A DNA stretch of 44,991 bases from an uncultured Owenweeksia sp. (GTDB taxonomy: Bacteria; Bacteroidota; Bacteroidia; Flavobacteriales; Schleiferiaceae), in contig CAKZRR010000025.1 in assembly GCA_937146805.1 (NCBI GenBank), positions 1 to 44,991 of the forward strand, given 5' to 3'. Of the stretch, positions 3,777-32,979 are shown piece after piece. A model generated the notes under the pieces. It was not told where the DNA came from. It saw nothing but the letters and a program-made list of their open reading frames with translations, and searched no databases. Within the stretch, counting starts at the first letter, position 1, and every line of letters starts with the position of its first letter. A program made the position numbers and the translations under genes.

Positions 3777-3778
3777 AA

Positions 3779-4853: not shown

Positions 4854-6632
4854 TTGCTGTCAGATAGTTTTCAAATACCTTTTGTATTAAGCGTTATTGC
4901 CGCTATGGTAGTGGTAATGGTGTTTGATAGAATTAAAACATCTTGGGTGTTTTTGGGAGGTAGCGCTTTGCTTATTTTAGGCGGAAGCGTGCATATTAAT
5001 GAATATGTTTCTGGGGTAAGTAATCCAGCTATCCTCAGTGTTTTTATCCTTATTATTATTACGGCTGGCGTAAATGATCATTTTAATCTAGCGGGGTTTT
5101 TCGAATCCCTTTTTGGTAAAACGGGCAATCAACGATCTTTTATTTGGAGGATGGGTTTATCAGTTTCCGCCATTTCATCGGTTATGAATAACACGCCCGT
5201 AGTGGCTATGATGATGCCTTATGTATATCAATGGGGTCAAAAACACAATATTAATCCAAGTAAACTTTTATTGCCGCTATCGTACAGTGCCATTTTAGGA
5301 GGGGTAATAACGTTAATAGGTACTTCTACTAATCTTGTTTTAAATGGATTACTTCTCGAAAATGGAGCAGCGCCTCTCGGTTTTACCGACTTTTTAATTC
5401 CCGGTGTACTCATAACTTTGGGTTGTTTGCTATTTATGTTTGCCTTTGGTTCTTGGCTAATGCCGGATAAAAACACGACTAAAAAATCTTTAACTGAGGA
5501 AGTGCGAGAATATTTGGTGGAGACGCGCGTAACGGCCAAAAGTGGTTGGGAAGGAAAAACCGTAGAAAAGGCAGGACTAAGACAATTGGAAAGTGTTTTT
5601 TTAACCGAAATTAACAGAGGTAAAATACGACTGGCTCCGGTAAAGCCTACCGATACTTTAATGGACGGGGATGTGCTTATTTTTGCTGGTGAGACGGCTG
5701 TTACTTTGGCCTTTATCAATAAAACGAAAGAGCTGGAACTATCTAAAACCAGCCAGTTTGAATTAGCCGATGGTACCGAAATTATAGAAGCCATTGTTTT
5801 GCAAAATAGCGGCTTGGATAGGCGTACGGTAAAGCAAATTGGTTTTAGAGAAAAGTACGATGCTGCCATTGTGGGAATTCATCGTTTGGGAGAAAAAATT
5901 GGTGGTAAAATTGGCTCGGTACATTTGCGTACTGGAGATTTACTTTTAATAAATGCAGGTGCTGAGTTTAGAGAACGTGCCTCTCGAACCAATGACCTGT
6001 TAATTGTAAATAGCCTTAAAAGCCGCAAGGAGCTAGCCAATTGGAAATTGTTGTTGTTTATAACATCGGTGCTGCTCACAGCTGGACTTTTGTTTGCAGG
6101 TGTCATGGATTTATTGGCTGGCTTACTATTTATTTTAGCGGTGCAATTACTCTTAAGCATGACGAATGTAGAGCGCATTAAGAAAAATATCAGTTTTGAA
6201 TTGCTCAGTATTTTAATATCAGCCTTAGCGTTGGGTAAAGCGTTAATTAGCACAGGTGCAGCCGATTACTTGTCGCATGTTGTTTTTGCCAATGCCCATA
6301 CTTGGGATCCTATGTGGGTGCTAGGTGGAGTGTTTGCCAGTACCTTTGTTTTAACTTCCTTAATAACCAATGTGGCGGCCATCAGTATTATTTTTCCGGT
6401 GGTATTTAGCCTTACTACTTTAAATATTATTCCCGCCCAAGCGCTTTATTTAACGGCTGCCTTTGGTGCTAGTTGTTGTTTTGCAACACCTTTTGCCTAC
6501 CAAACCAATTTAATGGTAATGGAGGCAGGCAATTATAATTTTAAAGATTTTATGAGGCTAGGACTGCCTTTAAGTGTAGTATACGCCTTCATATTTTTAA
6601 CCTTTGTAGCTTTTAAATACAGTCTTTTATGA
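4854..6632 (+). CDS. SLC13-family permease with two TrkA-C domains, probable sulfate importer
   Basis: The 592-residue inner-membrane protein has hydrophobic segments at both ends flanking a soluble middle. The first half carries the SLC13/DASS signature MNNTPVVAMMMPY (about 100-112) and GTSTNLVLNG (about 158-167). The second half carries TNVAAISIIFPV and a closing ATPFAYQTNLMV. Two regulatory TrkA-C-like domains lie in between, at about residues 216-282 and 305-372. Proteins of this layout take up sulfate or related anions. The cysC gene starts 4 bases before this gene ends, and cysD and cysN follow, which strongly favours sulfate. The start is TTG 4854, since an in-frame stop lies just upstream at 4848-4850. 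A weak -7-like TACTTTAG lies at 4826. The substrate is inferred from context. Confidence 0.85.
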   Translation: MLSDSFQIPFVLSVIAAMVVVMVFDRIKTSWVFLGGSALLILGGSVHINEYVSGVSNPAILSVFILIIITAGVNDHFNLAGFFESLFGKTGNQRSFIWRMGLSVSAISSVMNNTPVVAMMMPYVYQWGQKHNINPSKLLLPLSYSAILGGVITLIGTSTNLVLNGLLLENGAAPLGFTDFLIPGVLITLGCLLFMFAFGSWLMPDKNTTKKSLTEEVREYLVETRVTAKSGWEGKTVEKAGLRQLESVFLTEINRGKIRLAPVKPTDTLMDGDVLIFAGETAVTLAFINKTKELELSKTSQFELADGTEIIEAIVLQNSGLDRRTVKQIGFREKYDAAIVGIHRLGEKIGGKIGSVHLRTGDLLLINAGAEFRERASRTNDLLIVNSLKSRKELANWKLLLFITSVLLTAGLLFAGVMDLLAGLLFILAVQLLLSMTNVERIKKNISFELLSILISALALGKALISTGAADYLSHVVFANAHTWDPMWVLGGVFASTFVLTSLITNVAAISIIFPVVFSLTTLNIIPAQALYLTAAFGASCCFATPFAYQTNLMVMEAGNYNFKDFMRLGLPLSVVYAFIFLTFVAFKYSLL

Positions 6633-7243
6633 GTGAAAAACTTCACATAATTCCACATCAACATCATGTAAATGTGGAGCACCGTAGGGCACAAAATAAG
6701 CATCAATCCTTTGTGATTTGGTTTATTGGATTGAGCGGCTCAGGCAAGTCTACCTTGGCCAGCCAGTTAGAAACTCAGCTTTTTAATGATGGCATGCGTA
6801 CCTATATATTGGATGGTGATAATATTCGATCGGGTTTAAATAAGGATTTAGACTTTTCGGAAAATGCCCGTAAAGAAAATATTAGGCGTATTGGCGAAGT
6901 AGCCAAATTAATGGTGGATGCAGGTGTATTAACACTTACTGCTTTTATTTCGCCCTTTGCTGAAGAACGTGAAATGGTAAAGCAGCTCTTAGGAGCGGCT
7001 AATTATGTAGAGGTATATGTAGATTGCCCCATAGAGGAGTGTGAAAAACGAGACGTGAAAGGTTTGTACGCCAAAGCACGTAAAGGCGAAATATCAAATT
7101 TTACAGGTATTAGTTCTCCTTTTGAGGTGCCTCAAAACCCAGACGTAGTAGTGAAAACTGCCGAAGTATCGGTAGCCGAAGGCGTAGAAAAAATTAAAGA
7201 AGCGATTTCTAAAAAGCTTCAAAATTCAATAACAACAAATTAA
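6629..7243 (+). CDS. cysC: Adenylyl-sulfate (APS) kinase
   Basis: This 204-residue cytoplasmic kinase phosphorylates APS with ATP to give PAPS. The P-loop GLSGSGKST is at residues 34-42, preceded by the family's typical FVIWFIG strand. The APS-binding strand LDGDNIRSGL and NENIRRIGEVAKL-type helix follow, and TAFISPFAEER (about 105-115) contains the conserved serine loop. The length is that of a stand-alone CysC rather than a CysNC fusion. The start codon overlaps the permease stop by 4 bases (ATGA), implying translational coupling, and cysD follows after 24 bases. In this window the PAPS has no visible reductase to feed, but two sulfotransferase-type genes lie downstream. Confidence 0.95.
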   Translation: MSEKLHIIPHQHHVNVEHRRAQNKHQSFVIWFIGLSGSGKSTLASQLETQLFNDGMRTYILDGDNIRSGLNKDLDFSENARKENIRRIGEVAKLMVDAGVLTLTAFISPFAEEREMVKQLLGAANYVEVYVDCPIEECEKRDVKGLYAKARKGEISNFTGISSPFEVPQNPDVVVKTAEVSVAEGVEKIKEAISKKLQNSITTN

Positions 7244-7267
7244 AACTCAATAAACTCAAATCTAAAT

Positions 7268-8170
7268 ATGCGTTACTCATTAACCCATTTAAAAGAGCTC
7301 GAATCCGAATCCATTTTTGTGATGCGCGAAGTGTATGCTCAATTCGAAAACCCTGCTATTTTGTTTTCGGGAGGTAAAGATTCTATTGTGCTTGCCCATT
7401 TGGCCAAAAAAGCCTTTTGGCCTGCCAAAATTCCTTTTCCATTGGTGCATATCGATACAGGTCATAACTTTCCCGAAACCATCAAGTTTAGAGATGATTT
7501 GGTAGAGGAATTAGGCGTAAAGTTGATTGTAGGAAGTGTGCAAGAATCTATTGATAAAGGGCGTGTGCGCGAAGAAACTGGTAAAAACGCCAGTAGAAAC
7601 GCTTTGCAAACCACCACTTTATTAGACACCATTGAGGCGGGTAATTTTGATGCTTGTATGGGAGGTGCTCGTAGAGATGAAGAAAAAGCACGCGCTAAAG
7701 AACGCTTCTTTTCACACAGAGATGATTTTGGGCAATGGGATCCTAAAAATCAACGTCCTGAGTTGTGGAACCTGTTTAATGGCAAAAAGAATATGGGAGA
7801 AAACTTTAGAGTTTTCCCGATTAGTAACTGGACGGAAATGGATGTGTGGCAGTATATTTTGCATGAGAACATTGCTATTCCATCTTTGTATTTAGCGCAT
7901 GAACGCGAAGTAATTTGGAGAAACAACTCTTGGTTACCGGTTTCGAAATACATTCAATTAGGACCCAACGAAACACCCGAAAAGAAAATGATTCGTTTTA
8001 GAACCTTAGGAGATATTACCATTACAGGAGGGGTAGAGTCGGAAGCTGATACATTGGCTATGATTGTAGATGAGGTAGCATCAGCTCGCCAAACCGAACG
8101 TGGAAACCGTGCAGATGACAAGCGCGGAGAGACGGCTATGGAGGACAGAAAAAAGCAAGGTTATTTTTAA
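7268..8170 (+). CDS. cysD: Sulfate adenylyltransferase subunit 2
   Basis: The 300-residue protein is the catalytic ATP-pyrophosphatase-type subunit of ATP sulfurylase, which makes APS from ATP and sulfate with CysN. The PP-loop SGGKDS is at residues 34-39, followed by PLVHIDTGHNFPET (about 59-72). Further conserved stretches are GGARRDEEKARAKER (about 131-146) and FPISNWTEMDVWQYI (about 178-192). The C-terminus RGETAMEDRKKQGYF is the usual CysD ending that contacts CysN. The length is normal for the family. It sits between cysC and cysN on the same strand, with 51 bases to cysN, and forms one transcription unit with them. Confidence 0.96.
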   Translation: MRYSLTHLKELESESIFVMREVYAQFENPAILFSGGKDSIVLAHLAKKAFWPAKIPFPLVHIDTGHNFPETIKFRDDLVEELGVKLIVGSVQESIDKGRVREETGKNASRNALQTTTLLDTIEAGNFDACMGGARRDEEKARAKERFFSHRDDFGQWDPKNQRPELWNLFNGKKNMGENFRVFPISNWTEMDVWQYILHENIAIPSLYLAHEREVIWRNNSWLPVSKYIQLGPNETPEKKMIRFRTLGDITITGGVESEADTLAMIVDEVASARQTERGNRADDKRGETAMEDRKKQGYF

Positions 8171-8221
8171 TCGATTGTTTTTAAGCCAACACCTTTTTGA
8201 ATTAATTAAATAAGACTTATC

Positions 8222-9505
8222 ATGAACACAAATAATACAGACAGTAACTCCTATTTAGATATGCAACTTTTGCGCTTTACTACAGCCGGAAGTGTAGATG
8301 ATGGCAAGAGTACCTTAATTGGTCGTTTGCTATACGATTCTAAGTCCATTTTTGAAGATCAGATAGATGCTGTACAAAGCAGTAGTGAAAAACGTGGTTT
8401 AGAACATGTAGATTTATCATTACTTACCGATGGCTTAAAAGATGAGCGTGAGCAGGGTATTACCATTGATGTGGCCTACCGCTATTTTGCCACGCCCAAG
8501 CGTAAATTTATTATTGCCGATACTCCGGGGCATATTCAGTACACCCGAAATATGGTTACGGGTGCTTCTACCTCCAACTTGGCACTTATTTTAGTAGATG
8601 TGCGTCATGGCGTTATTGAGCAAACTTGCCGCCATTCGTTTATCGCCTCTTTATTGCAAATCCCACATTTAGTGGTGTGCATTAATAAAATGGACTTGGT
8701 AGATTACAGCGAAGAAGCCTATAATAAAGTGGTGGAGCAATACAAAAACTTTGCGGCCAAATTGGATGTAAAAGATATCCGATTTGTACCTATAAGTGCC
8801 TTACATGGCGATAATGTGGTAAACAGATCTGAAAACACGCCTTGGTATGGTGGCGAAACCTTAATGCATACGTTGGAAACGATTCACATTGGTAGTGATG
8901 AAAATCACATCGACTGTAGATTTCCGGTGCAAACCGTAATACGCCCACACTCAGATGAATACCACGATTACCGTGGGTATGCAGGCAGAGTAGCTGGTGG
9001 TGTTTTTAAACCAGGAGACGATATTACTGTATTGCCCTCTGGATTTACCTCTAAAATTAAAGCGATAGATAGCTTTGATGGTGCTTTGGAAGAAGCCTTT
9101 GCGCCAATGTCTGTAACGCTTACGCTGGAAGATGATATTGATGTGGGTAGAGGTGATATGATCGTGCGACCTAAAAATCAACCAGTAGCCACGCAAGATA
9201 TAAATGTAATGCTATGTTGGTTAAACCAAGAAGGCCCGATGGCAGGAGGGAAATACGCCATTAAACATACCAGTAATGAAGCGCGATGTATGATTAAAGA
9301 GATATTGTATAAAGTGGATATCAACACCCTTCACCGTTTAGAAAGTGACAAGGAAATAAAAGGGAATGATATAGCTCGCGTGCAGTTGCGCACCACCAAA
9401 CCGTTGTTTGTAGATGAGTACAATACCAATAGAAATACAGGTAGTATTATTTTGATAGATGAAACTACTAACGAAACGGTAGCTGCTGGGATGATAATCC
9501 TTTAA
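8222..9505 (+). CDS. cysN: Sulfate adenylyltransferase subunit 1 (GTPase)
   Basis: This 427-residue translation-factor-like GTPase drives APS formation by CysD. The G1 loop AGSVDDGKST lies at residues 22-31, the G3 motif DTPGHIQYTRNM at about 100-111 and the G4 motif NKMD near 157. ERGITIDVAYRYF-type switch sequence (here EQGITIDVAYRYF) lies between. Two beta-barrel domains follow. The protein ends at the barrel and lacks the CysC domain seen in CysNC fusions, which fits the separate cysC gene upstream. A hairpin with a T-run follows, so this is the last gene of the sulfate activation operon. Confidence 0.95.
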   Translation: MNTNNTDSNSYLDMQLLRFTTAGSVDDGKSTLIGRLLYDSKSIFEDQIDAVQSSSEKRGLEHVDLSLLTDGLKDEREQGITIDVAYRYFATPKRKFIIADTPGHIQYTRNMVTGASTSNLALILVDVRHGVIEQTCRHSFIASLLQIPHLVVCINKMDLVDYSEEAYNKVVEQYKNFAAKLDVKDIRFVPISALHGDNVVNRSENTPWYGGETLMHTLETIHIGSDENHIDCRFPVQTVIRPHSDEYHDYRGYAGRVAGGVFKPGDDITVLPSGFTSKIKAIDSFDGALEEAFAPMSVTLTLEDDIDVGRGDMIVRPKNQPVATQDINVMLCWLNQEGPMAGGKYAIKHTSNEARCMIKEILYKVDINTLHRLESDKEIKGNDIARVQLRTTKPLFVDEYNTNRNTGSIILIDETTNETVAAGMIIL

Positions 9506-12998: not shown

Positions 12999-14315
12999 AT
13001 GGGCCTACTGTTGGACAAAGAGTATAAAATTGCCGTAATAGGATTAGGTTATGTGGGATTGCCACTGGCGTTGGAGTTCAGTAAAAAATTTGCCACCTAT
13101 GGTTTTGATATTAATTTAGATAGGGTACACGAACTAAGACAAGCCAAGGATCACACTTTAGAGGCTGACCCGAAGGAGCTGGAGGCGGCCATATGCCAAA
13201 GTAAAAGTGATTTACAAAGTGGCAAAGGGCTGTACTTTACCGCAAGTATGGAAGAAATTGCAGAGGCCAACGTGTATATTGTTACGGTTCCTACACCTAT
13301 AGATCAGTTTAAGTCGCCTGACTTAGGTCCACTTATTTCCGCTTCGGCTGCTATTGGCAAAATATTGAAAAAAGACGATATCGTAATCTACGAATCTACC
13401 ACCTACCCAGGTTGTACTGAAGAGGATTGTGTACCTGTTTTAGAAAAACACTCAGGACTAACCTTTAACCAAGATTTTTATTGCGGTTACTCACCCGAGC
13501 GAATTAACCCGGGTGATAAGGTAAATACCCTAACTACTATTATGAAGGTAACTTCGGGTTCAACGCCTCAAATTGCCAAAGTGGTAGATGGTTTGTACAA
13601 GGCTATAATTACGGCCGGTACGCATTTGGCACCCAATATGCGCGTGGCTGAGGCTAGCAAAGCCATCGAAAATGCGCAGCGAGATGTAAATATCTCTTTT
13701 GTAAATGAACTGGCCCTAATTTTTGATAGAGTAGGTATTGATACCAAAGACGTATTGGAAGCAGCAGGTACCAAATGGAACTTTTTAAAATACCAACCGG
13801 GTTTAGTAGGCGGCCATTGTATTGGGGTAGATCCCTACTATTTGGCGCATAAAGCACAGGCATTGGGTTACCACCCCCAAGTAATTTTATCGGGTAGGCG
13901 TGTTAATGATACCATGGGCATGTTTGTAGCCAACAAGGCTGTAAAGTTAATGATTGAAAAAGGTACCCGTGTAAAAGGTTCTGAAGTGCTAATTATGGGT
14001 ATTACTTTTAAAGAGAATTGTCCCGATATTAGAAATACTCGTGTGGTGGATATTTATGCCGAGTTTGAACAATTTGAATGTAAAGTAGATGTTTGGGATC
14101 CGTGGGTAAATGCAGATGAAGTAAAGGCAGAATACGGTATTGATGTGCAATCTACCTTTGAGGCCCTTAAAAATAAGAAATACAAAGCCATCATATTGGC
14201 AGTAGGGCATAATCAATTTGCACAAGTAAATCTTTCGGATTTAAAAGATAACGACTGTGTAATTTTTGATACCAAAGGATTTTTTGATAGAGATATAGTG
14301 GACGCTAGGTTGTAA
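12999..14315 (+). CDS. UDP-N-acetylhexosamine 6-dehydrogenase (TviB/WbpA/WbpO type)
   Basis: The 438-residue NAD-dependent enzyme oxidises C6 of a UDP-N-acetylhexosamine to the uronic acid in two steps. The N-terminal Rossmann motif is VIGLGYVGLPLALEF (about 13-27). TVPTPID lies near 98, and GYSPERINPGDK (about 164-175) marks the TviB-like branch. The catalytic cysteine sits in VGGHCIGVDPYYL near residue 274. The C-terminal substrate-binding domain begins around MGITFKENCPDIRNTR (about 333-348). Its product, UDP-GlcNAcA or UDP-GalNAcA, would feed the WbpB/WbpD pair at 3198-4798 and could also be used directly. It lies 10 bases after the kinase gene. The GlcNAc/GalNAc choice cannot be made by eye. 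Confidence 0.88.
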   Translation: MGLLLDKEYKIAVIGLGYVGLPLALEFSKKFATYGFDINLDRVHELRQAKDHTLEADPKELEAAICQSKSDLQSGKGLYFTASMEEIAEANVYIVTVPTPIDQFKSPDLGPLISASAAIGKILKKDDIVIYESTTYPGCTEEDCVPVLEKHSGLTFNQDFYCGYSPERINPGDKVNTLTTIMKVTSGSTPQIAKVVDGLYKAIITAGTHLAPNMRVAEASKAIENAQRDVNISFVNELALIFDRVGIDTKDVLEAAGTKWNFLKYQPGLVGGHCIGVDPYYLAHKAQALGYHPQVILSGRRVNDTMGMFVANKAVKLMIEKGTRVKGSEVLIMGITFKENCPDIRNTRVVDIYAEFEQFECKVDVWDPWVNADEVKAEYGIDVQSTFEALKNKKYKAIILAVGHNQFAQVNLSDLKDNDCVIFDTKGFFDRDIVDARL

Positions 14316-14400: not shown

Positions 14401-15402
14401 ATGAGTAAGGTATTAATAGTTGGAGGTGCAGGATATGTGGGTACCGTGCTAACGTCACATTTGCTTAAAGGTGGAAACGATGTAGTAGTGTTGGATAACT
14501 TTGTGTACAGCAATCAGTTCTCCATATCACCTTATTTAGGAGACCCTAATTACACGTTTATTAACGGAGACCTTGGAAAAGAAAGTGATTTAGAAAAGGC
14601 GGCTAAAGGTGTAGATCACGTGGTGGTATTGGCGGGCTTGGTAGGAGATCCTATCACTAAAAGCTATCCAGAAGCATCAGAGGCGATTAACGAGAAGGGT
14701 GTAAAAGCCTGTATTGATTACTTTGATGATAAGGATATTAAGAAGCTAATTTTTGTTTCTACTTGCTCTAACTACGGATTAATTAAAGAAGGGGAACTGG
14801 CAGACGAGGAGTTTGAACTCAACCCATTATCATTATATGCTAAAGCCAAAGTGGGTGCCGAAAAGCATGTGCTAAGTAAAAAAGGTAAAGTATCCTATGC
14901 AGGCGTAATTTTACGTTTTGCAACAGCTTTTGGCCTTTCGCCTCGTATGCGTTTTGATCTTACGGTAAGTGAGTTTACCCGCGATTTGTTTTTTGGCGAA
15001 GAGCTGGTAGTTTTTGATGAGCATACCTGGAGGCCTTACTGCCATGTTAGAGATTTCTCTCGCCTTATAGATATGGTTTTTGAAGCGGATGACAGTAAAG
15101 TGGCGTTTGAAGTGTTTAATGCCGGTGGAGACGTAAACAACTTTACCAAAAAGATGATTGTTGACGCCATCGCGGATAGGATTCCAAATTCAAAAATCTC
15201 CTATAATCAAAAAGGTAGCGACCCACGTAATTATCGAGTATCCTTTAAAAAGGTAAAAGATACTTTAGGTTTTGAACCAAATTTTACCGTAGAAACGGGT
15301 ATTGCCGAATTGATTGATGCCTTTGATTTAGGCCTGTATTCAGATTCATTAAGCCATAAGCAGCGCTACGGAAATTATGAGATAAATTATAAAAACCAGT
15401 AA
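14401..15402 (+). CDS. NAD-dependent epimerase/dehydratase (extended SDR)
   Basis: The 333-residue cytoplasmic protein begins with the Rossmann glycine motif VGGAGYVGTVL and an acidic residue after strand 2 (VVLDNFVYSNQF), typical of NAD-using sugar-nucleotide SDRs. The active site has the serine region VSTCSNYG and YAKAK (YxxxK). The substrate part includes RFATAFGLSPRMRFDL and RPYCHVRDFSRLI, patterns common to UDP- or GDP-sugar epimerases and dehydratases. I start at ATG 14401; the open frame reaches back to TTG 14386. The next gene starts 1 base after the stop and encodes an aminotransferase, so the SDR probably makes a keto sugar or epimer for it. The exact nucleotide sugar is unknown. 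Confidence 0.8.
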   Translation: MSKVLIVGGAGYVGTVLTSHLLKGGNDVVVLDNFVYSNQFSISPYLGDPNYTFINGDLGKESDLEKAAKGVDHVVVLAGLVGDPITKSYPEASEAINEKGVKACIDYFDDKDIKKLIFVSTCSNYGLIKEGELADEEFELNPLSLYAKAKVGAEKHVLSKKGKVSYAGVILRFATAFGLSPRMRFDLTVSEFTRDLFFGEELVVFDEHTWRPYCHVRDFSRLIDMVFEADDSKVAFEVFNAGGDVNNFTKKMIVDAIADRIPNSKISYNQKGSDPRNYRVSFKKVKDTLGFEPNFTVETGIAELIDAFDLGLYSDSLSHKQRYGNYEINYKNQ

Positions 15403-15403
15403 A

Positions 15404-16546
15404 ATGAGTTTTGATAGTACGGTAGAGTTTATAAAGGACAGTTTTGGAAGGCCCAACTTTATCCCGTTGCACATTCCTAATTTTTGGGGCAACGAAAAAA
15501 AGTATTTGGCAGATACTATTGAAACCACCTTTGTATCATCGGTAGGAGCTTATGTAAATAAGTTTGAAGAACACATTGCAGAGTATACCCAAACGGCTAA
15601 ATGTGCAGCCGTGGTAAACGGTACAGCTGCGTTGCAAGTTGGCCTTAGAGTGGTAGGGGTGCAAGCGCACGATGAGGTGCTAACCCAAGCGCTCACCTTT
15701 GTGGCTACTACCAATGCTATCGCATACAATTTTGCCAAACCCGTTTTTGTGGATGTTGACTTGGATACCATGGGAATGTCTCCTAAGGCATTGGCTAACT
15801 TTTTAAATGAATTTGGTGAAAGGCGCGGTACGGATTGCTACAACAAAAAAACAGGTAAACGAATAGCGGCTTGCGTGCCCATGCACACCTTTGGGTTTAT
15901 GTGCCGCATAGATGAAATTGTAGCTATTTGTAATGATTGGAACATACCCGTAGTTGAAGATGCTGCTGAAGCCTTGGGTTCTTCCTATAAAGGAAAACCA
16001 GCCGGATCTTTTGGTGAAGTGGGTGCTTTTAGCTTTAACGGCAATAAAATAATGACGGCCGGAGGTGGCGGAGCCATAGTATCTTTAAATCCTGATTTTG
16101 CAGATAAAGCCAAGTACTTAACCAATACGGCCAAAGTGCCGCATAAGTGGGAATATGTGCATGATGAGTTGGGTTACAACTTGCGTATGCCTAATGTAAA
16201 TGCGGCCTTAGCTTGTGCACAGTTTGAGCAGCTCGAAAACCTACGCCAGTCTAAAAAGGAATTGTATGAAGCCTACCAAGGCTTTTTTGCAGGAACGGAT
16301 ATAAAGCTGCGAGAAATGCCCGAAAATAGTGATTGGAACTATTGGCTTATTTGTGTAGAACTGAAAGACCGAACGGAGCGTGATGCCTTTTTAGAAGCTA
16401 CTAATAGCAATGGTGTAATGACCCGCCCTATTTGGCAATTAATGTATCGATTACCCATGTATGCCGATTGCCAAAAAGATGCGCAAACCAATGCCGAGTA
16501 TTTAGAAGAAAGAATTGTAAACATACCAAGTAGTGCAAGAAAATAA
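15404..16546 (+). CDS. LegC-like sugar-nucleotide aminotransferase (DegT/DnrJ/EryC1/StrS)
   Basis: This 380-residue PLP enzyme transfers an amino group, usually from glutamate, to a keto sugar nucleotide. The opening IPLHIPNFWGNEKKYL and TTFVSSVGAYVNKFE is typical of LegC-type members. VVNGTAALQVGLR binds the cofactor phosphate, VVEDAAEALGSSYKG contains the PLP-ring aspartate, and FSFNGNKIMTAGGGG carries the Schiff-base lysine at residue 215. LegC-type enzymes usually aminate C4 of a 4-keto-6-deoxy-N-acetylhexosamine. It is tightly packed between the SDR gene (1 base) and the formyltransferase gene (1 base). With the formyltransferase next door, a 4-formamido sugar is a reasonable guess. No nonulosonate synthase accompanies it here. 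Confidence 0.85.
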   Translation: MSFDSTVEFIKDSFGRPNFIPLHIPNFWGNEKKYLADTIETTFVSSVGAYVNKFEEHIAEYTQTAKCAAVVNGTAALQVGLRVVGVQAHDEVLTQALTFVATTNAIAYNFAKPVFVDVDLDTMGMSPKALANFLNEFGERRGTDCYNKKTGKRIAACVPMHTFGFMCRIDEIVAICNDWNIPVVEDAAEALGSSYKGKPAGSFGEVGAFSFNGNKIMTAGGGGAIVSLNPDFADKAKYLTNTAKVPHKWEYVHDELGYNLRMPNVNAALACAQFEQLENLRQSKKELYEAYQGFFAGTDIKLREMPENSDWNYWLICVELKDRTERDAFLEATNSNGVMTRPIWQLMYRLPMYADCQKDAQTNAEYLEERIVNIPSSARK

Positions 16547-16547
16547 A

Positions 16548-17438
16548 ATGAAAATAGGATACTTCGCGGATGGACCTTGGTCTCACAAGGCCTTTGAATT
16601 GTTAATTGAAGATTCATCTTTATCTATTGAGTTTATTGTTCCTCGATCGGATACTAAGGATGAAACGTTAAAGAATTACGCCAAAAAATACAACATTGAT
16701 TATTTATGCCCAGTGAAAATAAACTCGGATGAGTTTTTTGAAAAAGCGGCTAGTTACCAATGTGATTTGTTCGTTTCTATGAGCTTTAACCAAATTTTCA
16801 GGAAACGAATAATGGAACTACCCCCTCTAAAAACAATTAACTGCCATGCTGGTAAGTTGCCATTTTACAGAGGTAGAAATATTCTTAATTGGGCTTTAAT
16901 AAATGATGAAAGTGAATTTGGTATTACCGTCCACTTTATTGATGAAGGTATTGATACTGGAGATATAATTTTACAAAGAAGCTATCCAATTTCAGATCAG
17001 GACGACTACTCAACCTTGCTAGAGTTTGCCTTTAAAGGATGCTCAGAAATACTGTATGATGCTGTAAAAAGCTTACAAAGCGGTAATTACAAGCGCTTGG
17101 TGCAAACCGAAATACACCCAGTAGGGTTTTATTGCGGTAGCCGTGGCGTTGGTGATGAAATGATTAACTGGAATCAAACTTCGCGTGAACTCTTCAACTT
17201 TGTAAGGGCAGTTTGTAGCCCCGCCCCTAAGGCCACCACCTTTTTTAATGGTGAGGAGGTTACTATTAATAAAGCAAGAATGGTGAAGGATGCACCCGTT
17301 TATAAAAATAAACCTGGACAAATATTAGCCAAAACGGAAGAGGGATACTTAGTTAAAACCGAAGATTCGTTTATTGAAATATTGGAAGTAGAAACTAAAG
17401 CGAAGCTTCGAATAGGTGATAGGCTTCAAAACATTTAA
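16548..17438 (+). CDS. Sugar N-formyltransferase-like protein
   Basis: The 296-residue protein belongs to the formyl-tetrahydrofolate-dependent transferase family shared with methionyl-tRNA formyltransferase. The catalytic triad appears as Asn98 and His100 in INCHAGKLPFYRGRN and Asp136 in IDEGIDTGDIIL. The second domain (about 200-290) has AVCSPAPKATTFFNGEEV and a small C-terminal barrel like that of MetRS formyltransferases. The protein is shorter than Fmt and lies between an aminotransferase and a nucleotidyltransferase, so it most likely formylates an amino sugar nucleotide. I start at ATG 16548, one base after the aminotransferase stop; the frame extends to GTG 16533. The real substrate is not visible from sequence. 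Confidence 0.82.
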   Translation: MKIGYFADGPWSHKAFELLIEDSSLSIEFIVPRSDTKDETLKNYAKKYNIDYLCPVKINSDEFFEKAASYQCDLFVSMSFNQIFRKRIMELPPLKTINCHAGKLPFYRGRNILNWALINDESEFGITVHFIDEGIDTGDIILQRSYPISDQDDYSTLLEFAFKGCSEILYDAVKSLQSGNYKRLVQTEIHPVGFYCGSRGVGDEMINWNQTSRELFNFVRAVCSPAPKATTFFNGEEVTINKARMVKDAPVYKNKPGQILAKTEEGYLVKTEDSFIEILEVETKAKLRIGDRLQNI

Positions 17439-17445
17439 ATAGGCC

Positions 17446-18504
17446 ATGCAAGTAGAGAATACAATTTCAGAAAGAGTCATTCAAAAAGATGCCAATCTCA
17501 TTCATGCTTTAAAGCAAATGGATACAGTAGATAAAAAACTACTGTTGGTAATGGATAACGATTTGTTTGTAGGCCTACTAAGTGTAGGTGATATACAGCG
17601 GGCCATTATTCAAAATGTAGAGCTTACCTCTGCGGTATCTGAAATACTTCGTAAAAATATTAAAATTGCCAGAACAAAGGATAGCCTGCGCGAGATTGAA
17701 AAAATGATGATTCAATACCGCATGGAGTTTTGCCCAGTGGTAAATGAACAAGGAAAGTTAGAGAAGGTATATTTGTGGGAAGAGCTTTTTGGCGAAGAGC
17801 AAATAAAAGTATCGGGTAAATTTGAGTTGCCGGTAGTAATTATGGCTGGTGGGCAAGGCTCCCGTCTTAGGCCTATAACTAATGTGTTGCCCAAGCCGCT
17901 AATGCCGCTGGATGACAAAACCATGCTTGAAGAAATTTTTGACCGTTTTAATGCCTACGGTTGCGAAGAATTTTTTGTGAGTGTAAATTACAAAGCCGAA
18001 TTGATAGAATACTATATCAACTCACTCAATTTACCCCTTAATGTTTCCTTTTTTAGAGAGCCCTCTCCTTTGGGTACAGCGGGCAGCCTTTCTTTATTAA
18101 AAGGAAAAATAAACTCTACTTTTTTTGTTAGTAATTGCGATATTATTATCGAACAAGACTACCACCAGGTATTAAAGTTTCACCAAGCTGGTAATTTTGA
18201 AGTAACCGTAATTGGGGCCGTAAAGCATTATTCTATACCCTACGGAACATTAGAAACTGGAGAAAACGGAGAGCTATTAGAACTTAAAGAAAAACCAGAT
18301 CATACCATACTTACCAATAGTGGTATGTATATTTTAGAACCCCACCTTATTGATGAAATTCCAGAAGGTGAAATGTTTCATATTACCCATCTTATCGAAA
18401 ACGTAATGAAGCGAGGAGGTAAAGTTGGTGTATTCCCTGTCTCCGAAAAATCATGGAAAGACATGGGGGTTTGGGATGAATTTTTGAAAAATAAGGTGAC
18501 ATGA
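17446..18504 (+). CDS. CBS-domain sugar-phosphate nucleotidyltransferase (PtmE-like)
   Basis: The 352-residue protein has a CBS pair in its first ~120 residues, with LLVMDNDLFVGLLSVGDIQRA near 35-55. A nucleotidyltransferase domain follows whose signature VIMAGGQGSRLRPIT and PKPLMPLDDKTMLE (about 130-160) binds the NTP and metal. FFVSNCDIIIEQDY carries the metal-binding aspartate. CBS plus nucleotidyltransferase is the architecture of Campylobacter PtmE, which makes GDP-glucosamine for legionaminic acid. Here it accompanies a LegC-like aminotransferase but no LegI/NeuB-like synthase, so a different GDP- or UDP-linked amino sugar is likely. Its stop overlaps the next start by 4 bases. The nucleotide and sugar are inferred. 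Confidence 0.8.
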   Translation: MQVENTISERVIQKDANLIHALKQMDTVDKKLLLVMDNDLFVGLLSVGDIQRAIIQNVELTSAVSEILRKNIKIARTKDSLREIEKMMIQYRMEFCPVVNEQGKLEKVYLWEELFGEEQIKVSGKFELPVVIMAGGQGSRLRPITNVLPKPLMPLDDKTMLEEIFDRFNAYGCEEFFVSVNYKAELIEYYINSLNLPLNVSFFREPSPLGTAGSLSLLKGKINSTFFVSNCDIIIEQDYHQVLKFHQAGNFEVTVIGAVKHYSIPYGTLETGENGELLELKEKPDHTILTNSGMYILEPHLIDEIPEGEMFHITHLIENVMKRGGKVGVFPVSEKSWKDMGVWDEFLKNKVT

Positions 18505-19046
18505 CGGTTTTAAAAAAAATATTAGGTAGTCTGGGGCTTATTAAAACATCATCTAAAAGGTTGGAGGAATACTTAGATACGTTAGGTATTCCGTTTCGAA
18601 ATCATAATACCCAGATAGATGGTTTAACACCATCTCTAATACAGATTGGAGAAAACTTTGTTTCTGCGCCAGGATCAAAAATTGTTTCACACGATTCTAG
18701 TCTAATATTGTCAAATGGAATTTTAAGGTTTGGAAGAGTTAAGGTGGGAGATAATGTTTTTGTAGGAGCAAATAGCGTGATACTAGCAGACACAGAAATT
18801 GGAGATAATTGTATTGTTGGTGCAGGAGCAGTGGTAAAAGGAAAGTTTAAGGCGGATTCTGTAATTGTAGGGAACCCTGCGAAGAGTATAATGACTGTGG
18901 GTCAGCTTTTATCCAAAATGAATGAAGGTGAAGCCTTTGTTCAAATACCACCAGAACTACTGGTTAAAATGAAAAAGTCTAAGCTATCATTCGATGATAG
19001 AAGAAAAATTGAAAATCTAGTAAATGTCAAGATTTTCAAAAGATAA
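18501..19046 (+). CDS. Hexapeptide-repeat (LbH) acyltransferase
   Basis: This 181-residue protein has left-handed beta-helix turns from about residue 45 to 135, ending in VGDNVFVGANSVILADTEIG, NCIVGAGAVVKGKF and SVIVGNPAKSI. These are the hallmarks of O- or N-acetyltransferases using acetyl-CoA. A helical C-terminal tail of about 45 residues follows. The start overlaps the nucleotidyltransferase stop (ATGA) and its 3' end overlaps the flippase start by 23 bases, so it is translationally coupled on both sides. It probably acetylates either the nucleotide sugar made by its neighbours or the lipid-linked unit. The acceptor is not identifiable. Confidence 0.8.
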   Translation: MTVLKKILGSLGLIKTSSKRLEEYLDTLGIPFRNHNTQIDGLTPSLIQIGENFVSAPGSKIVSHDSSLILSNGILRFGRVKVGDNVFVGANSVILADTEIGDNCIVGAGAVVKGKFKADSVIVGNPAKSIMTVGQLLSKMNEGEAFVQIPPELLVKMKKSKLSFDDRRKIENLVNVKIFKR

Positions 19047-20214
19047 GATTAAGGTTTTATTGTCTAATTTCGGAGGTAAGGGGATGGGGATGATAGCTTC
19101 CATTCTCGTTGTCAGGATACTGAGTACCGAAGATTTTGCGGAATGGTCTTATTACAAGTCCTTTTTAGCCTTTTTACTTCCATTATCTGGTTTAGGTATG
19201 GATCAGGTTTTTTTGCGATATTCTTATATTAAGGAAGTAGATAAAGAAGAACTAAAAAAGCAAACCTTTAGCTTGGCTGTGTTTACGGGTGTTTTTAGTA
19301 CGCTATTGGCCACCTTTGTAATTTATTGGGTTAGGCCAGGTGATTATGTAAATACCTTATTGCTCTTATTGGTTCTTTTACAATTAACTACGGTGCAATT
19401 TAACCTGTTTCAAAAATTTTATTTTCGTATTGTAAATGATTTTGCGAGGTACTCACAGGTAGTATTTTTATCCTCCGTTTTTACTGGGTTGGCTTTAATT
19501 ATAGGGGCTCTAATTGGTATAGAGGTAATGGCCTTGCTGGTGGCCTTGTGTTTTATTATTTACTACTTGTTTTCCTCGGTACGTATGAGTTTTAGTTTTA
19601 GCAGTATTAAAACTATTAGCATGGAACGTTTGAAGTATGGCGTAAGTATTGGCGTTGGGGGTTTGTTTAATAAGAGTATTTATGTTTTTGATATAATTTA
19701 CATTGGAAATATTTTGAATAATCAGGAATTATTGGCGGGCTACAAAGTGGCCTCTTTGTTGCCATTTAATCTAATTTTATTTACAGGTGCTATTTTAACG
19801 GTTGATTTTGGTGATTTTGTAAATTTTAAAAGAAAAGATATTATAAACTACCTTATTAGTTATTGGAAAAAGGTGCTCCTTTTATTGGTTCCTGTAGGTA
19901 TAGTAATTTTTTTGTTTGGTGAGCTAATAGTAAAACTATTGTTTGGTAGTAGATACGAGGAATATGGAGAGTTAATGTTTTTCTATTTTATGTTGGTAGC
20001 GTTAATAGTACTGCTTAGGCAACCTGTTGGTAAAATGCTTACGGCCTTAGGTTACGCTACATATAATTCTGTGGTTACTGTTGCGCAAGCGATAATGCTA
20101 GGGGCTCTTTTTATTTTACCCTTTGAGTTAAGTGCTACCCAATTGATTATGTATTTTGCTTGTACGGTATTGCTGCTTTCTAGCATACAATTTATAAAAT
20201 TACTCCGTTTATGA
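19024..20214 (+). CDS. Wzx-type O-antigen/EPS flippase
   Basis: The 396-residue inner-membrane protein has about twelve hydrophobic segments spread over its length and an opening NFGGKGMGMIASILVVRILS typical of Wzx/MOP-superfamily polysaccharide flippases. It would move the undecaprenyl-diphosphate-linked repeat unit to the periplasmic face for Wzy. It overlaps the acyltransferase by 23 bases and the next glycosyltransferase by 4. The length is normal for the family. There is one flippase and one polymerase in the locus, consistent with a single polymer. Confidence 0.88.
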   Translation: MSRFSKDKIKVLLSNFGGKGMGMIASILVVRILSTEDFAEWSYYKSFLAFLLPLSGLGMDQVFLRYSYIKEVDKEELKKQTFSLAVFTGVFSTLLATFVIYWVRPGDYVNTLLLLLVLLQLTTVQFNLFQKFYFRIVNDFARYSQVVFLSSVFTGLALIIGALIGIEVMALLVALCFIIYYLFSSVRMSFSFSSIKTISMERLKYGVSIGVGGLFNKSIYVFDIIYIGNILNNQELLAGYKVASLLPFNLILFTGAILTVDFGDFVNFKRKDIINYLISYWKKVLLLLVPVGIVIFLFGELIVKLLFGSRYEEYGELMFFYFMLVALIVLLRQPVGKMLTALGYATYNSVVTVAQAIMLGALFILPFELSATQLIMYFACTVLLLSSIQFIKLLRL

Positions 20215-21347: not shown

Positions 21348-22247
21348 ATGCAATTATTATTCGTTATTGGATTCCCACGTAGTGGCACCAAGTTATTGCT
21401 GCAACTGCTTCGAACTAATTCCCAAATTTCTGGCCCAAAGGTAGAGGTTAATTTGGCGCATCAATTTGAAAAATTGGACTTTGAAGCATTTAAAAAAGCC
21501 CTAGAACAATCTACTTTATGGGTTAATATGGGAGATGTAAAAAAGAAGGTGGAGTCTTTCTTAAAGGAATATAGTGTTGAGGACGAAAAAACTTGGGAGG
21601 AATTTTATATACAATTTTTAGAGAGTTGTGACTTGAACAAAGGGCAAACTTATGTTATTGATAAAAGTCCTCGCTATATTACTAAGGGAGAAGGTTTATT
21701 AAAAAATTTCCCAAACGCTAAATATATTCATATCACTAGAGATGTGAGAGCTATTGCTAATTCTCATGCTAACGTTTGGAAAAAAAATGTTTACCGTGTA
21801 GCTGACCAGTGGAATAAGTCAGTTTTAAGTTTTCATAGAGCTTCAAAGGGCAAGAGTCAGGTTTTGGTAATACGGTATGAGGATTTAGTTGAAAACCCAA
21901 AAAAATGTGTTTTAAAGATTCAAAATTTTCTTGAATTAGAGACCCCTTTTGATATAGACAATGTTAGCTCAAACGAAAGTCATGGAAGCGTAGCTGCCAC
22001 TGGTATTGTAAGTACGGCAAAAGTATCAACCTATAAGCCTTCGGTCGAAAAACGAATGGAGGAGTATGCATTTAACGGATTAAAAGAATTTGGTTATTCC
22101 GTGAAATTTGCTAGCCAGCAGAAAGAAATGCCATTTATAAGTAAACTACGATATTTTTTGAACGATCAACTAAACGTTTTGGGTTTTCATATTAAAGAAA
22201 AAGGGTTGGTAAAGGGAGTTGATTATTTTATAAGGCTTAAAAAATAG
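21348..22247 (+). CDS. PAPS-dependent sulfotransferase
   Basis: The 299-residue protein begins with FVIGFPRSGTKLLLQLL (residues 5-21), the 5'-phosphosulfate-binding loop of sulfotransferases. The 3'-phosphate-binding motif is YIHITRDVRAIANSHANVW (about 126-144), including the conserved Arg and Ser. VIRYEDLVENPKKCVLKI (about 176-193) is the next family landmark. The length is normal for bacterial carbohydrate sulfotransferases. It has no signal peptide, so sulfation would be cytoplasmic, on the nucleotide or lipid-linked sugar before flipping. It sits in the EPS operon about 12 kb from the cysCDN genes that would supply PAPS. The acceptor sugar is unknown. The gene looks more A/T-rich than its upstream neighbours. 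Confidence 0.9.
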   Translation: MQLLFVIGFPRSGTKLLLQLLRTNSQISGPKVEVNLAHQFEKLDFEAFKKALEQSTLWVNMGDVKKKVESFLKEYSVEDEKTWEEFYIQFLESCDLNKGQTYVIDKSPRYITKGEGLLKNFPNAKYIHITRDVRAIANSHANVWKKNVYRVADQWNKSVLSFHRASKGKSQVLVIRYEDLVENPKKCVLKIQNFLELETPFDIDNVSSNESHGSVAATGIVSTAKVSTYKPSVEKRMEEYAFNGLKEFGYSVKFASQQKEMPFISKLRYFLNDQLNVLGFHIKEKGLVKGVDYFIRLKK

Positions 22248-23115: not shown

Positions 23116-24252
23116 ATGGATTATAAGGAAGGTAGTTTTAATTTCTTAACTCTCATTCTAAAATCGCTTACAATCGATTTTAGTACGAAGGAAGGTATAG
23201 CAGGTGTTAATGGCCCTTACAGGGATGCGGAAACAGGTGTGCGGGCTAAGGCGCATATGATAGCTTTACTAAGTAATTTGGATAGAGCAGGCAATACTAA
23301 ACAGCACCAACAGCAAGTTGAAGGTTTGGTAACTAGTTTGCTCGAGAGCGAACATAGGTTGGCTTTTTCAGTTTTTGAGCAACGAAAAAAACCGGGCAAA
23401 GATGAGGTAAATGGAGTAATAGGAATTGCTTGGATAATTGAGGCGATGTGTTGCGCTTATCAAACCTACGGAACAAAGGAGGCAAAAATCTTTTTACAAA
23501 AGATTGAAGGAGAGTTGAATTTTAATACCAACAGAGCCTTATGGACACGCCCGGTGTTGCCGGACAATAAGTACTATAAAACCATTGATGAAACTTTTAA
23601 CCACCAATTGTGGTTGGCCTATGGCTTAGTTTTTAAAGCCAAGGCATTGGGCGAACCATTGAGCGCTAATGTGCAGGCTTATTTTGACAATCTAAATCGG
23701 TCTTTTAAAATACATAATTCGGGTTTAATTATACATGCAGTACACTATAGTAGTAGTTTAAAAAGCAAAGTGAAAACCATGCTAAAATCTTTGCGAGATG
23801 GCGTACAGGTAAGGCTGTTAGGTAAAACCAAAAAGTACAAGGAAAACGGTTACCATTTATTTAATATGTTTGCTTTTGCTCGAATGGCCGATTTGGGTTA
23901 TGCCGATTTATTTGCGGCTAATACTAGGTTTAAAAAAGCATTGGAATATACCCAAAGCTCCACGTTGTTAGCGGGGCTTTGCAACAATGAGGATGAGCAG
24001 GATTTTTATAAAATAGAACCTTTTTCAAATTTGCCCTATAATCGCTATGGTTTCCCGTATAACGTGGCGGGTTTGGAGTTTGTTTACGTAGATAAAGTAC
24101 TTGATTTGAAGGTGAGCAAAAAGGTAAAGGAGTGCTATTGGGAAAGCCAAATGAAGTGTTATGACCAAGGTAAATTAGAAGATCCGGTTTTACTAACTGA
24201 AGACGTGCCTAATTTATATTTAAGAGCCTACGAATTAAGTTTTGTTTTGTAA
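23116..24252 (+). CDS. Uncharacterised EPS-locus protein, helix-rich
   Basis: I do not recognise a named family with certainty for this 378-residue protein. It has no signal peptide or membrane segment. Repeated helical pairs punctuated by aromatic and acidic loops (for example TIDETFNHQLWLAYGL, ENGYHLFNMFAFARMADLG and NRYGFPYNVAGLEFVY) look like an (alpha/alpha)6-toroid such as those in glycoside hydrolases, lyases or isomerases. ATG 23116 follows the sulfotransferase-like gene stop with no gap, and Wzy starts 10-13 bases after its end, so it belongs to the EPS operon. A cytoplasmic sugar-binding or processing role is conceivable. The function is open. Confidence 0.65.
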   Translation: MDYKEGSFNFLTLILKSLTIDFSTKEGIAGVNGPYRDAETGVRAKAHMIALLSNLDRAGNTKQHQQQVEGLVTSLLESEHRLAFSVFEQRKKPGKDEVNGVIGIAWIIEAMCCAYQTYGTKEAKIFLQKIEGELNFNTNRALWTRPVLPDNKYYKTIDETFNHQLWLAYGLVFKAKALGEPLSANVQAYFDNLNRSFKIHNSGLIIHAVHYSSSLKSKVKTMLKSLRDGVQVRLLGKTKKYKENGYHLFNMFAFARMADLGYADLFAANTRFKKALEYTQSSTLLAGLCNNEDEQDFYKIEPFSNLPYNRYGFPYNVAGLEFVYVDKVLDLKVSKKVKECYWESQMKCYDQGKLEDPVLLTEDVPNLYLRAYELSFVL

Positions 24253-28781: not shown

Positions 28782-29376
28782 TAGATTAGTAAAAATAATT
28801 TTTGATTTATTGGTAGCCGTAATCGTATTATTGTGTACCCTACCAGTAACTATTTTTATAAGCGTCTTTTTATTTATTGCAAATGGCGGCAAACCTTTCT
28901 TCTTTCAAAAACGACCGGGTAAGAATGGGGTAATATTTAGCATCATTAAGTTCAAAACCATGAACGATAAAAAGGGTCCTGACGGAAACTTATTGCCTGA
29001 CGCTGAGAGGCTTAGCGCTGTTGGTCGATTTGTGCGAAAGATATCATTAGACGAGATACCTCAATTGATAAATGTTTTAAAAGGAAACATGAGTTTAGTT
29101 GGGCCACGTCCTTTGCTTCCTGAATATTTACCCCTTTATAATAGTCGGCAAAAGCGCAGACATGAAGTTAAACCGGGTATTACGGGCTGGGCTCAGGTAA
29201 ATGGTCGCAATGCCATAAGTTGGCCTGAAAAATTTGAACTGGACGTATGGTATGTTGAAAATCAAAGTTTTATACTTGATTTAAAGATTTTGTACCGAAC
29301 GGTAAAGAAGGTATTTATTTCTGAGGGAATAAATGCGGAAGGAAGTGTTACCATAGAAAAATTTAAAGGGAACTAG
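28774..29376 (+). CDS. PglC-like initiating phosphoglycosyl transferase
   Basis: The 200-residue monotopic membrane enzyme transfers a phospho-sugar from a UDP-sugar to undecaprenyl phosphate, starting the repeat unit. A re-entrant hydrophobic helix (about 6-36) is followed by FFFQKRPGKNGVIFSIIKFK. The Asp93-Glu94 catalytic dyad is in RKISLDEIPQLINVLKG, and MSLVGPRPLLPEYLPLYN follows. GITGWAQVNGRNAISW closes the domain. The length and the dyad position match Campylobacter PglC, which prefers UDP-diNAcBac, rather than the longer WbaP/WcaJ type. Downstream PglD-, PglE- and PglF-like genes support a bacillosamine-type substrate. It overlaps the preceding GT gene by 8 bases. Confidence 0.92.
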   Translation: MYSRLVKIIFDLLVAVIVLLCTLPVTIFISVFLFIANGGKPFFFQKRPGKNGVIFSIIKFKTMNDKKGPDGNLLPDAERLSAVGRFVRKISLDEIPQLINVLKGNMSLVGPRPLLPEYLPLYNSRQKRRHEVKPGITGWAQVNGRNAISWPEKFELDVWYVENQSFILDLKILYRTVKKVFISEGINAEGSVTIEKFKGN

Positions 29377-30557: not shown

Positions 30558-30565
30558 ATTTTGTT

Positions 30566-31663: not shown

Positions 31664-31686
31664 AGCGTTACTTTAAAAGTTTTTTT

Positions 31687-32850: not shown

Positions 32851-32920
32851 AGTTTGTAAGGGCTAAGGTTATTAAAAGAGGTTTGTCTAAAACTATCAGT
32901 AATCAAACTATAGGGATCGG

Positions 32921-32979
32921 GGTTAAATAACTAGCTTTAACCAGCTATTTAGTAAACTGTATTGATTAGTTAGTACAGT
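32921..32979. promoter_or_regulatory. Two short inverted repeats upstream of the dehydratase gene
   Basis: GGTTAAA (32921-32927) pairs with TTTAACC (32936-32942), and ACTGTA (32956-32961) with TACAGT (32974-32979). They lie in the 188-base gap, shortly before a TATTTTTG -7 box. They could be operator half-sites or small RNA hairpins, or chance in A/T-rich DNA. Confidence 0.25.

Follow-up and report, generated by a model that had tools for sequence, protein, structure and literature searches.

A probable Cj1427-like dehydrogenase and a LegC aminotransferase in an Owenweeksia amino-sugar module that lacks the lower nonulosonate pathway

In a 44,991-nucleotide stretch of DNA from an uncultured Owenweeksia sp. 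(assembly GCA_937146805.1, contig CAKZRR010000025.1), hereafter called the window, we analysed a module of five genes at positions 14401-19046. They encode a short-chain dehydrogenase/reductase (SDR), a LegC-family aminotransferase, a formyltransferase, a CBS-domain nucleotidyltransferase and a left-handed beta-helix (LbH) acyltransferase. The best reading of this operon is a legionaminic-type (5,7-diamino nonulosonate) pathway of which only the upper half is present, with two of its enzymes swapped. The SDR is probably a C4-dehydrogenase like Cj1427 rather than a 4,6-dehydratase, a point that the initial annotation of this DNA had missed, and because of this resemblance the sugar should keep its 6-hydroxyl. 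On balance, we favour the view that the module makes a nucleotide-linked 2-acetamido-4-formamido-2,4-dideoxyhexose, with the 6-hydroxyl retained, and that this sugar is used directly as a polysaccharide donor. The proposal builds on observed gene content, genome-wide absences, the SDR's clade and motif, and gene contexts; from these we infer the reactions, the nucleotide and the stereochemistry. The five genes are as follows.

14401-15402, forward strand: SDR (Epimerase/SDR family; ATG start, with an in-frame TTG at 14386), called as a Cj1427-like nucleoside diphosphate (NDP)-sugar C4-dehydrogenase, whose predicted reaction is oxidation at C4, without 4,6-dehydration, the electrons passing to alpha-ketoglutarate
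15404-16546, forward strand: LegC-family pyridoxal phosphate (PLP)-dependent aminotransferase (DegT), 1 nucleotide after the SDR gene, predicted to aminate C4
16548-17438, forward strand: N-formyltransferase (Formyl_trans_N and Formyl_trans_C), gap of 1 nucleotide as counted from its ATG, with the 4-amino group as its predicted target
17446-18504, forward strand: CBS-domain sugar-1-phosphate nucleotidyltransferase (CBS and NTP_transferase), after a gap of 7 nucleotides, predicted to supply an NDP-N-acetylhexosamine (NDP-HexNAc)
18501-19046, forward strand: LbH acyltransferase (Hexapep), overlapping the nucleotidyltransferase gene by 4 nucleotides

All five open reading frames (ORFs) are intact and co-directional, and their coordinates and family matches agree with the earlier description of five tightly packed genes with gaps of 1 to 7 nucleotides or overlaps. 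An alternative upstream GTG start of the formyltransferase gene, at 16533, would overlap the LegC gene. The aminotransferase, previously termed LegC-like, exceeds the cut-off of the LegC family TIGR04181 (513.9 versus 420 bits). The grouping does not appear to be chance, since the SDR and the aminotransferase, often with the nucleotidyltransferase, recur together in other genomes.

Identity of the SDR

The closest solved relative of the SDR is 6vo6/6vo8 (E = 2.5e-52), which the PDB title describes as Cj1427, an essential NAD-dependent dehydrogenase from Campylobacter jejuni. The two proteins are 39% identical and share an SPRMRxDL segment. An AlphaFold model of the SDR, with a predicted local distance difference test score (pLDDT) of 92.3, has 6vo6_D as its top PDB match (Z 39.1, root-mean-square deviation 1.9, 306 aligned residues). 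However, the fold alone does not decide the identity, because the next match, a hypothetical dTDP-glucose 4,6-dehydratase (2hun), follows closely with Z 37.5.

We therefore rely on sequence comparisons across 24 SDR loci, comprising the window, L006-L018 and L030-L039, several of which lie on short contigs (L008, L011, L013, L014). Each locus was counted once: L009, L019 and L028 are the same locus, as are L010, L020 and L029; the window is also L002 and L049; and nested loci were not counted (L003-L005 in L037-L039, L021-L027 in L030-L036, and L050-L056 in L057-L063). A tree of 30 proteins included 19 of the 24 SDRs, without L013, L015, L031, L033 and L038, which are partial or close kin. These 19 fall together with Cj1427 on one side of a branch with support of 100/100, and the RmlB, LegB, UXS, GalE and TviC homologues fall outside this clade. 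A constrained tree that joined the 19 SDRs with LegB and RmlB and set Cj1427 apart was rejected (approximately unbiased test, p-AU 7e-5). The placement of the SDR in the Cj1427 clade is thus strong, but not final, as the branches are long.

The motif STCSNYG is found in the SDRs of all 24 loci, and is invariant across alignment A1, which has 20 rows (all loci but L013, L015, L031 and L033); a second alignment, A2, covers 14 of the 24. At the catalytic positions, the SDR reads TCS and Cj1427 reads TNS, as compared with TSE in LegB (STSEVYG) and TDE in the RmlB of the window genome (STDEVYG). According to Table 1 of PMC8987622, the residues that follow the catalytic Ser or Thr are DE, DK or SE in 4,6-dehydratases, CE in TunA and DK in Pen. 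Such an acid/base pair after the catalytic Thr is absent from the SDR in all 24 loci, and also from Cj1427. As reported in PMC10680097, Cj1427 holds its NADH tightly, has it reoxidised by alpha-ketoglutarate to yield L-2-hydroxyglutarate, and produces a 4-keto heptose. We rejected a LegB identity for the SDR, which scores about 54 bits (54.3-54.6) against a cut-off of 475; the motif and the tree also oppose it.

The SDR-LegC pair in other genomes

An aminotransferase gene lies directly downstream of the SDR gene in 22 of the 24 loci (nearest to LegC in 17 and to other DegT types in five; the exceptions are L017 and L036). A collection of plasmids holds two distant SDR relatives, of which that from Cupriavidus is followed by a LegC-like gene and that from Haloterrigena is preceded by an aminotransferase gene. 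In nine of the 24 loci, NeuB is encoded within 11 kb of the SDR, and in at least five relatives the SDR-LegC pair opens a complete nonulosonate cluster: L007, L009, L016, L018 and L035 have the order SDR-LegC-NeuD-NeuB-NeuC, followed by the nucleotidyltransferase and NeuA. (L007, from Pontibacter diazotrophicus, has a formyltransferase and a deacetylase within the run from NeuC to the nucleotidyltransferase and NeuA.) Bacteria in which the pair occurs with NeuC, NeuB and NeuA include Pontibacter, Balneola and a Pelagibacteraceae genome, among others. LegB was not found at 1e-60 in 22 of the 23 other SDR-bearing genomes, so the SDR appears to take the place of LegB in NeuB-bearing clusters.

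Sets of SDR, LegC and nucleotidyltransferase without NeuB also recur, in the sister genomes G116, G384 and G150 and in G637. Loci L037-L039 come from the genus and family of the window; G150 and G384 have no NeuB, and the sole match to the NeuB profile in G116 is partial and scores 40.6 bits (Pfam cut-off 22.1, cluster-borne synthases 200-350 bits), so that we take it for a related aldolase rather than a synthase. G637, in which NeuB is absent, carries L010 of Fodinibius halophilus 2W32, with the order SDR-LegC-deacetylase-formyltransferase-NeuD-nucleotidyltransferase. The SDR-LegC-nucleotidyltransferase set of L012 has no NeuB nearby, and NeuB is on another contig of that genome. No NeuB match was found in the genomes of L006, L011 and L017 (1.2, 2.4 and 4.0 Mb, completeness not stated).

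As a separate observation, a PIG-L/BshB-type deacetylase gene stands beside a gene for a second kind of formyltransferase in the nonulosonate-type clusters of L007 (14954-16509), L010 (12149-13652) and L061 (5885-7425), where an N-acetyl group is perhaps exchanged for an N-formyl group.

Further evidence on the SDR reaction comes from L-2-hydroxyglutarate oxidase genes. The equivalog cut-off for this oxidase is exceeded in six SDR loci (402-482 bits, cut-off 299). The gene is directly upstream of the SDR gene in L008, L009, L010, L032 and L033, and three genes up, with two genes between, in L006. The oxidase is thus close upstream in six of the 19 SDR loci that have at least 1.2 kb of upstream sequence. 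A simple model of gene positions, which assumes 1.3 copies per 3000 genes, puts the chance of this adjacency at about 1e-13, or at 7e-9 for four of 17, with four counted as independent. The family is the oxidase of the L-stereoisomer, which fits the product reported for Cj1427. For reoxidation of the SDR-bound NADH by alpha-ketoglutarate, this adjacency in relatives is an indirect indication. Only adjacency is informative here: we set aside mere presence of the oxidase in a genome as evidence, since it is found in 13 of 18 SDR genomes, 13 of 35 others and 11 of the 15 members of the window's own family that lack the SDR.

Absence of the lower nonulosonate pathway

The window genome (3.16 Mb, 58 contigs, 98.86% complete) has no match to NeuB/LegI (PF03102), a profile that was detected in nine of 14 control genomes. 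Its sole CTP_transf_3 (PF02348) protein is KdsB, which leaves no LegF/NeuA, and its best match to LegG/NeuC scores 65.9 bits, as against a TIGR03568 cut-off of 235.9. The absence of synthase, epimerase and CMP-transferase noted by the initial annotation thus extends to the whole genome, and a search for a NeuB/LegI and NeuA/LegF pair elsewhere, which had been named as the refuting case, found none. Among candidates for LegB, the best match in the genome reaches 127 bits (cut-off 475). There is no 4,6-dehydratase gene within 14401-19046; a PglF-type gene lies 14 kb off, with its own aminotransferase and acetyltransferase genes.

The formyltransferase

At 1e-45, the formyltransferase is present in eight of the 395 genomes searched from the phylum, including that of the window. 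Its seven relatives in other genomes (41-68% identity) all adjoin NeuB. In four loci (L057, L058, L059 and L061, 58-68% identity) the gene is exactly between LegC and NeuB; in L060 (60%) a NeuD-type gene separates it from LegC, and in L062 and L063 (41%) it directly follows NeuB. The position between LegC and NeuB in four of the seven fits formylation of an amine made by LegC. When aligned to ArnA, whose domains are its best solved matches among sugar enzymes, the protein keeps N-x-H (NCH) and Asp (IDEGIDTGD); we take these Asn, His and Asp to be the catalytic residues. We infer that it formylates the 4-amino group installed by LegC. These contexts support the formamido-sugar reading that had been suggested previously.

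The keto-sugar enzymes encoded at these seven loci are LegB (L060, L061), PglF-like proteins (L057, L058) and a divergent SDR whose motif is STSE (L059, L062, L063); none of the seven stretches encodes a Cj1427-like SDR. The window thus pairs the opening enzyme of one type of nonulosonate pathway with the acyl-transfer step of a different type.

We also observed a nucleotide-sugar 6-dehydrogenase gene directly beside that of the STSE-motif SDR in L059 (4995-7398), L062 (3-2311) and L063 (13617-16123), in clusters with LegC, NeuC and NeuB. The 6-dehydrogenases of L059 and L063 are above the TIGR03026 cut-off, and that of L062 was assigned by BLAST only. These clusters may represent a nonulosonate route via a hexuronate, giving an acidic or shortened ulosonate.

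Proposed pathway

In the pathway that we propose, the CBS-domain nucleotidyltransferase would activate HexNAc- or hexosamine-1-phosphate, perhaps to GDP-N-acetylglucosamine (GDP-GlcNAc). The SDR would then oxidise C4 without eliminating the 6-hydroxyl, unlike LegB, and alpha-ketoglutarate would reoxidise its bound NADH; the L-2-hydroxyglutarate so formed could be recycled by a separate L-2-hydroxyglutarate oxidase. LegC would aminate C4 with glutamate, so regenerating alpha-ketoglutarate, and the formyltransferase, in place of the LegH/NeuD acetyltransferase, would formylate the resulting 4-amino group. Without NeuC, NeuB and a CMP-transferase, the NDP-hexose itself would be the donor for the polysaccharide of the surrounding export, flippase and glycosyltransferase genes.

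The window nucleotidyltransferase is 58-59% identical to the nucleotidyltransferases that accompany SDR and LegC in L010 and L012. Its best 25 NCBIfam matches mix GTP, UTP and dTTP families, all below cut-off, and we therefore dropped the attempt to read the nucleotide preference from sequence. The CBS and NTP_transferase domains are both present, and the earlier label 'PtmE-like' stands as a statement about this domain architecture only; PtmE of C. jejuni is a CBS-type GlcN-1-P guanylyltransferase of the same architecture. Since Cj1427 uses a GDP-sugar and PtmE is of the guanylyltransferase type, GDP is the favoured donor nucleotide. Published accounts describe a start from GDP-GlcNAc in the C. 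jejuni legionaminic pathway (PMC9298399) and a preference for UDP-GlcNAc in B. subtilis (PMC7439481).

The LbH acyltransferase has a weak NeuD-like match (57.1 bits, cut-off 160.8), and is the best match of no ORF in the 23 other SDR loci and seven formyltransferase loci; it may perform O- or N-acetylation.

Evidence against the proposal and alternative explanations

Several observations weigh against this proposal. At 39% identity, Cj1427 is a distant guide, and its substrate is GDP-heptose. The Cys of the SDR motif occupies the position of the Cys that serves as acid in the 5,6-dehydratase TunA, and Table 1 of PMC8987622 includes an enzyme, sulfoquinovose synthase, with MG after the catalytic residue and with acid and base given as unknown. 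The formyltransferase relatives do not test retention of the 6-hydroxyl, because they stand with other keto-sugar enzymes and never with a Cj1427-like SDR. As to the oxidase, none is adjacent in the window, where the genome's copy (507.9 bits) is on another contig; the gene is common in the window's family in any case, as the SDR-less members attest; five of the 18 SDR genomes searched (G445, G742, G749, G750, G751) have none above cut-off; the homologue in L017 is weak and convergent (168.7 bits, below cut-off); and the adjacency in six of 19 SDR loci is not significantly different from zero of seven SDR-less formyltransferase loci (p 0.15). Finally, a membrane 4,6-dehydratase homologue encoded at 33039 could feed LegC instead of the SDR.

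This last possibility leads to the strongest competing explanation, which we nevertheless consider unlikely: that the PglF/WbpM-type 4,6-dehydratase (33039-34973) feeds LegC, that the SDR is an epimerase or oxidase acting elsewhere, and that the product is an ordinary UDP-2-acetamido-4-formamido-2,4,6-trideoxyhexose. The 33039 product is indeed homologous to such enzymes (PseB model 204.9 bits, FnlA 148.9, both below cut-off), LegC aminotransferases classically use 4-keto-6-deoxy substrates, and relatives of the formyltransferase co-occur with LegB or PglF-like genes. However, the 33039 gene has near it a second aminotransferase gene (31687; LegC model 387.2 bits, cut-off 420) and two NeuD-type acetyltransferase genes, which make up a set with it; the adjacency of SDR and aminotransferase in nearly all loci would go unexplained; and the L-2-hydroxyglutarate oxidase of six relatives would be needless for an epimerase.

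A second explanation involves the genes that flank the module.

12999-14315, forward strand: TviB-like UDP-HexNAc 6-dehydrogenase (NF011729, 557.4 bits, cut-off 592), just upstream of the SDR gene
19024-20214, forward strand: Wzx-type flippase (PF13440/PF01943), overlapping the LbH gene by 23 nucleotides

In an Arn-like route, the TviB-like enzyme would make a UDP-N-acetylhexosaminuronic acid, the SDR would oxidise C4 with loss of CO2, and LegC and the formyltransferase would then produce a 4-formamido pentose donor like UDP-4-formamido-arabinose (UDP-Ara4FN). The order of genes and the similarity of the formyltransferase to ArnA domains speak for this route, as a 6-dehydrogenase-like gene is directly upstream of the SDR gene in the window and in L035, and is separated from it by one gene in L006 and L036. 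Yet we regard it as improbable, since only five of the 24 SDR loci (the fifth being L012, at 8.8 kb) have such a gene within 11 kb, and the SDR is outside the clade of the genome's UXS-type homologue. Moreover, the 6-dehydrogenase may belong with an oxidoreductase (3773-4798) and an LbH protein (3198-3776) encoded further upstream in the window, relatives of both of which follow the TviB-like gene in L012. It probably serves another sugar of the cluster, and we treat it as a module member in this alternative only, given that 19 of the 24 SDR loci, some of them short, lack one within 11 kb.

It is more doubtful still that the SDR is an unrecognised dehydratase with Cys122 as its acid, so that the sugar is 6-deoxy and only NeuB, NeuC and NeuA are missing. 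Table 1 of PMC8987622 does list TunA as TCE with Cys as acid, which resembles the TCS of the SDR, but the neighbouring base (Glu or Lys) is absent in all 24 loci, and Cj1427, the characterised member of the clade, reads TNS and is reported to give a 4-keto sugar (PMC10680097). Least probable of all is a decayed nonulosonate cluster, a functionless remnant after the loss of NeuB, NeuC and NeuA: complete nonulosonate clusters do hold close relatives of the SDR, LegC and the formyltransferase, but the five ORFs are intact and packed, and NeuB-less sets of this kind recur in G116, G384, G150 and G637.

Surrounding polysaccharide genes

Because the Wzx gene overlaps the module, the sugar is probably destined for a Wzx-dependent surface polysaccharide. 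The cluster includes an export protein (9721) and a GNVR-domain chain-length-type protein (10532) upstream; further downstream there are glycosyltransferase-type genes and a gene whose product matches Wzy_C weakly, below cut-off. A 378-residue protein encoded inside the cluster (23116-24252) matched neither Pfam nor NCBIfam families at the thresholds applied.

Other genes of the window point to additional functions. Upstream of the polysaccharide genes, at 4854-9505, are genes for a CitMHS-type transporter, adenosine 5'-phosphosulfate (APS) kinase, a PAPS-reductase-domain protein (CysD-like) and a GTPase (CysN-like), and the same four-gene run precedes the SDR gene in L007 (2107-6885). A sulfotransferase gene (21348-22247) lies among the polysaccharide genes, and the polysaccharide may be sulfated. 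At 28774-34973 there is a second amino-sugar set, comprising a phosphoglycosyltransferase, two NeuD/PglD-type acetyltransferases, an aminotransferase and the PglF-type membrane dehydratase, as for di-N-acetylbacillosamine. The polysaccharide cluster is followed, at 36567-37588, by genes for an exosortase family protein XrtF (143.3 bits, cut-off 90) and an associated membrane protein (62.9 bits, cut-off 35).

Wider implications

More tentatively than for the module itself, we propose that a branch of amino-sugar biosynthesis in its own right starts from the SDR-LegC pair, with C4 amination without 6-deoxygenation. When combined with NeuC, NeuB and NeuA, the pair would lead to 5,7-diamino-3,5,7-trideoxy-nonulosonic acids that keep a C9 hydroxyl, and without them an NDP-2-acetamido-4-formamido-2,4-dideoxyhexose would be the donor. 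If this is true, the C9-hydroxyl 5,7-diamino nonulosonates would form a class that is intermediate between the sialic and the legionaminic acids. Should the SDR be a C4-dehydrogenase, bacterial clusters that one would read as legionaminic would make a different sugar, which keeps its terminal hydroxyl and is nearer to sialic acid, and the L-2-hydroxyglutarate oxidase genes beside such enzymes in sugar clusters would be explained; the window would illustrate that this upper pathway can also be of use where a nonulosonate synthase is missing. In the open-licence literature that we searched, we found no description of 5,7-diamino nonulosonates with a retained C9 hydroxyl, nothing that ties legionaminic acid to a C4-dehydrogenase or nonulosonic or nucleotide sugars to hydroxyglutarate, and nothing on PtmE together with legionaminic acid and CBS, or on 6VO8.

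Comparison with known systems

The window resembles the CMP-legionaminic acid pathway (LegB-LegC-LegH-LegG-LegI-LegF) in that a LegC above its family cut-off is encoded together with a nucleotidyltransferase and an amide-forming transferase, as it is in NeuB-bearing relatives. However, it lacks LegB, LegG/NeuC, LegI/NeuB and LegF/NeuA, its first enzyme is from another SDR clade, and a formyltransferase replaces the acetyltransferase.

The ArnA/ArnB system, which makes UDP-4-formamido-arabinose, has the same order of chemistry, namely C4 oxidation, amination and N-formylation, and the window formyltransferase is related to the N-terminal domain of ArnA. ArnA, however, decarboxylates a uronic acid, whereas in the window the SDR is a protein of its own, unfused and from another clade. 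A probable formyltransferase gene inside a Leg-type cluster has been described for N-formyl legionaminic acid in Halorubrum sp. PV6, although that cluster is complete, with annotated LegB, LegG, LegI and LegF (PMC6137143). Unlike the bacillosamine-type pathway of PglF, PglE and PglD, the module has no internal 4,6-dehydratase.

WbpB, a UDP-N-acetylglucosaminuronic acid (UDP-GlcNAcA) 3-dehydrogenase, belongs to a different protein family from the SDR, acts at C3 rather than C4, and involves D- rather than L-2-hydroxyglutarate. It nevertheless parallels the predicted behaviour of the SDR, with tightly bound NADH, alpha-ketoglutarate as the sink, and hydroxyglutarate recycled with D-2-hydroxyglutarate dehydrogenase, as described in PMC8651671.

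Cj1427, the GDP-heptose C4-dehydrogenase, is like the window SDR in clade (100/100), fold (Z 39.1), SPRMRxDL segment and lack of the dehydratase acid/base pair. The two differ in that the window SDR is followed by an aminotransferase, rather than by an epimerase and a reductase, and in that its predicted substrate is an NDP-HexNAc.

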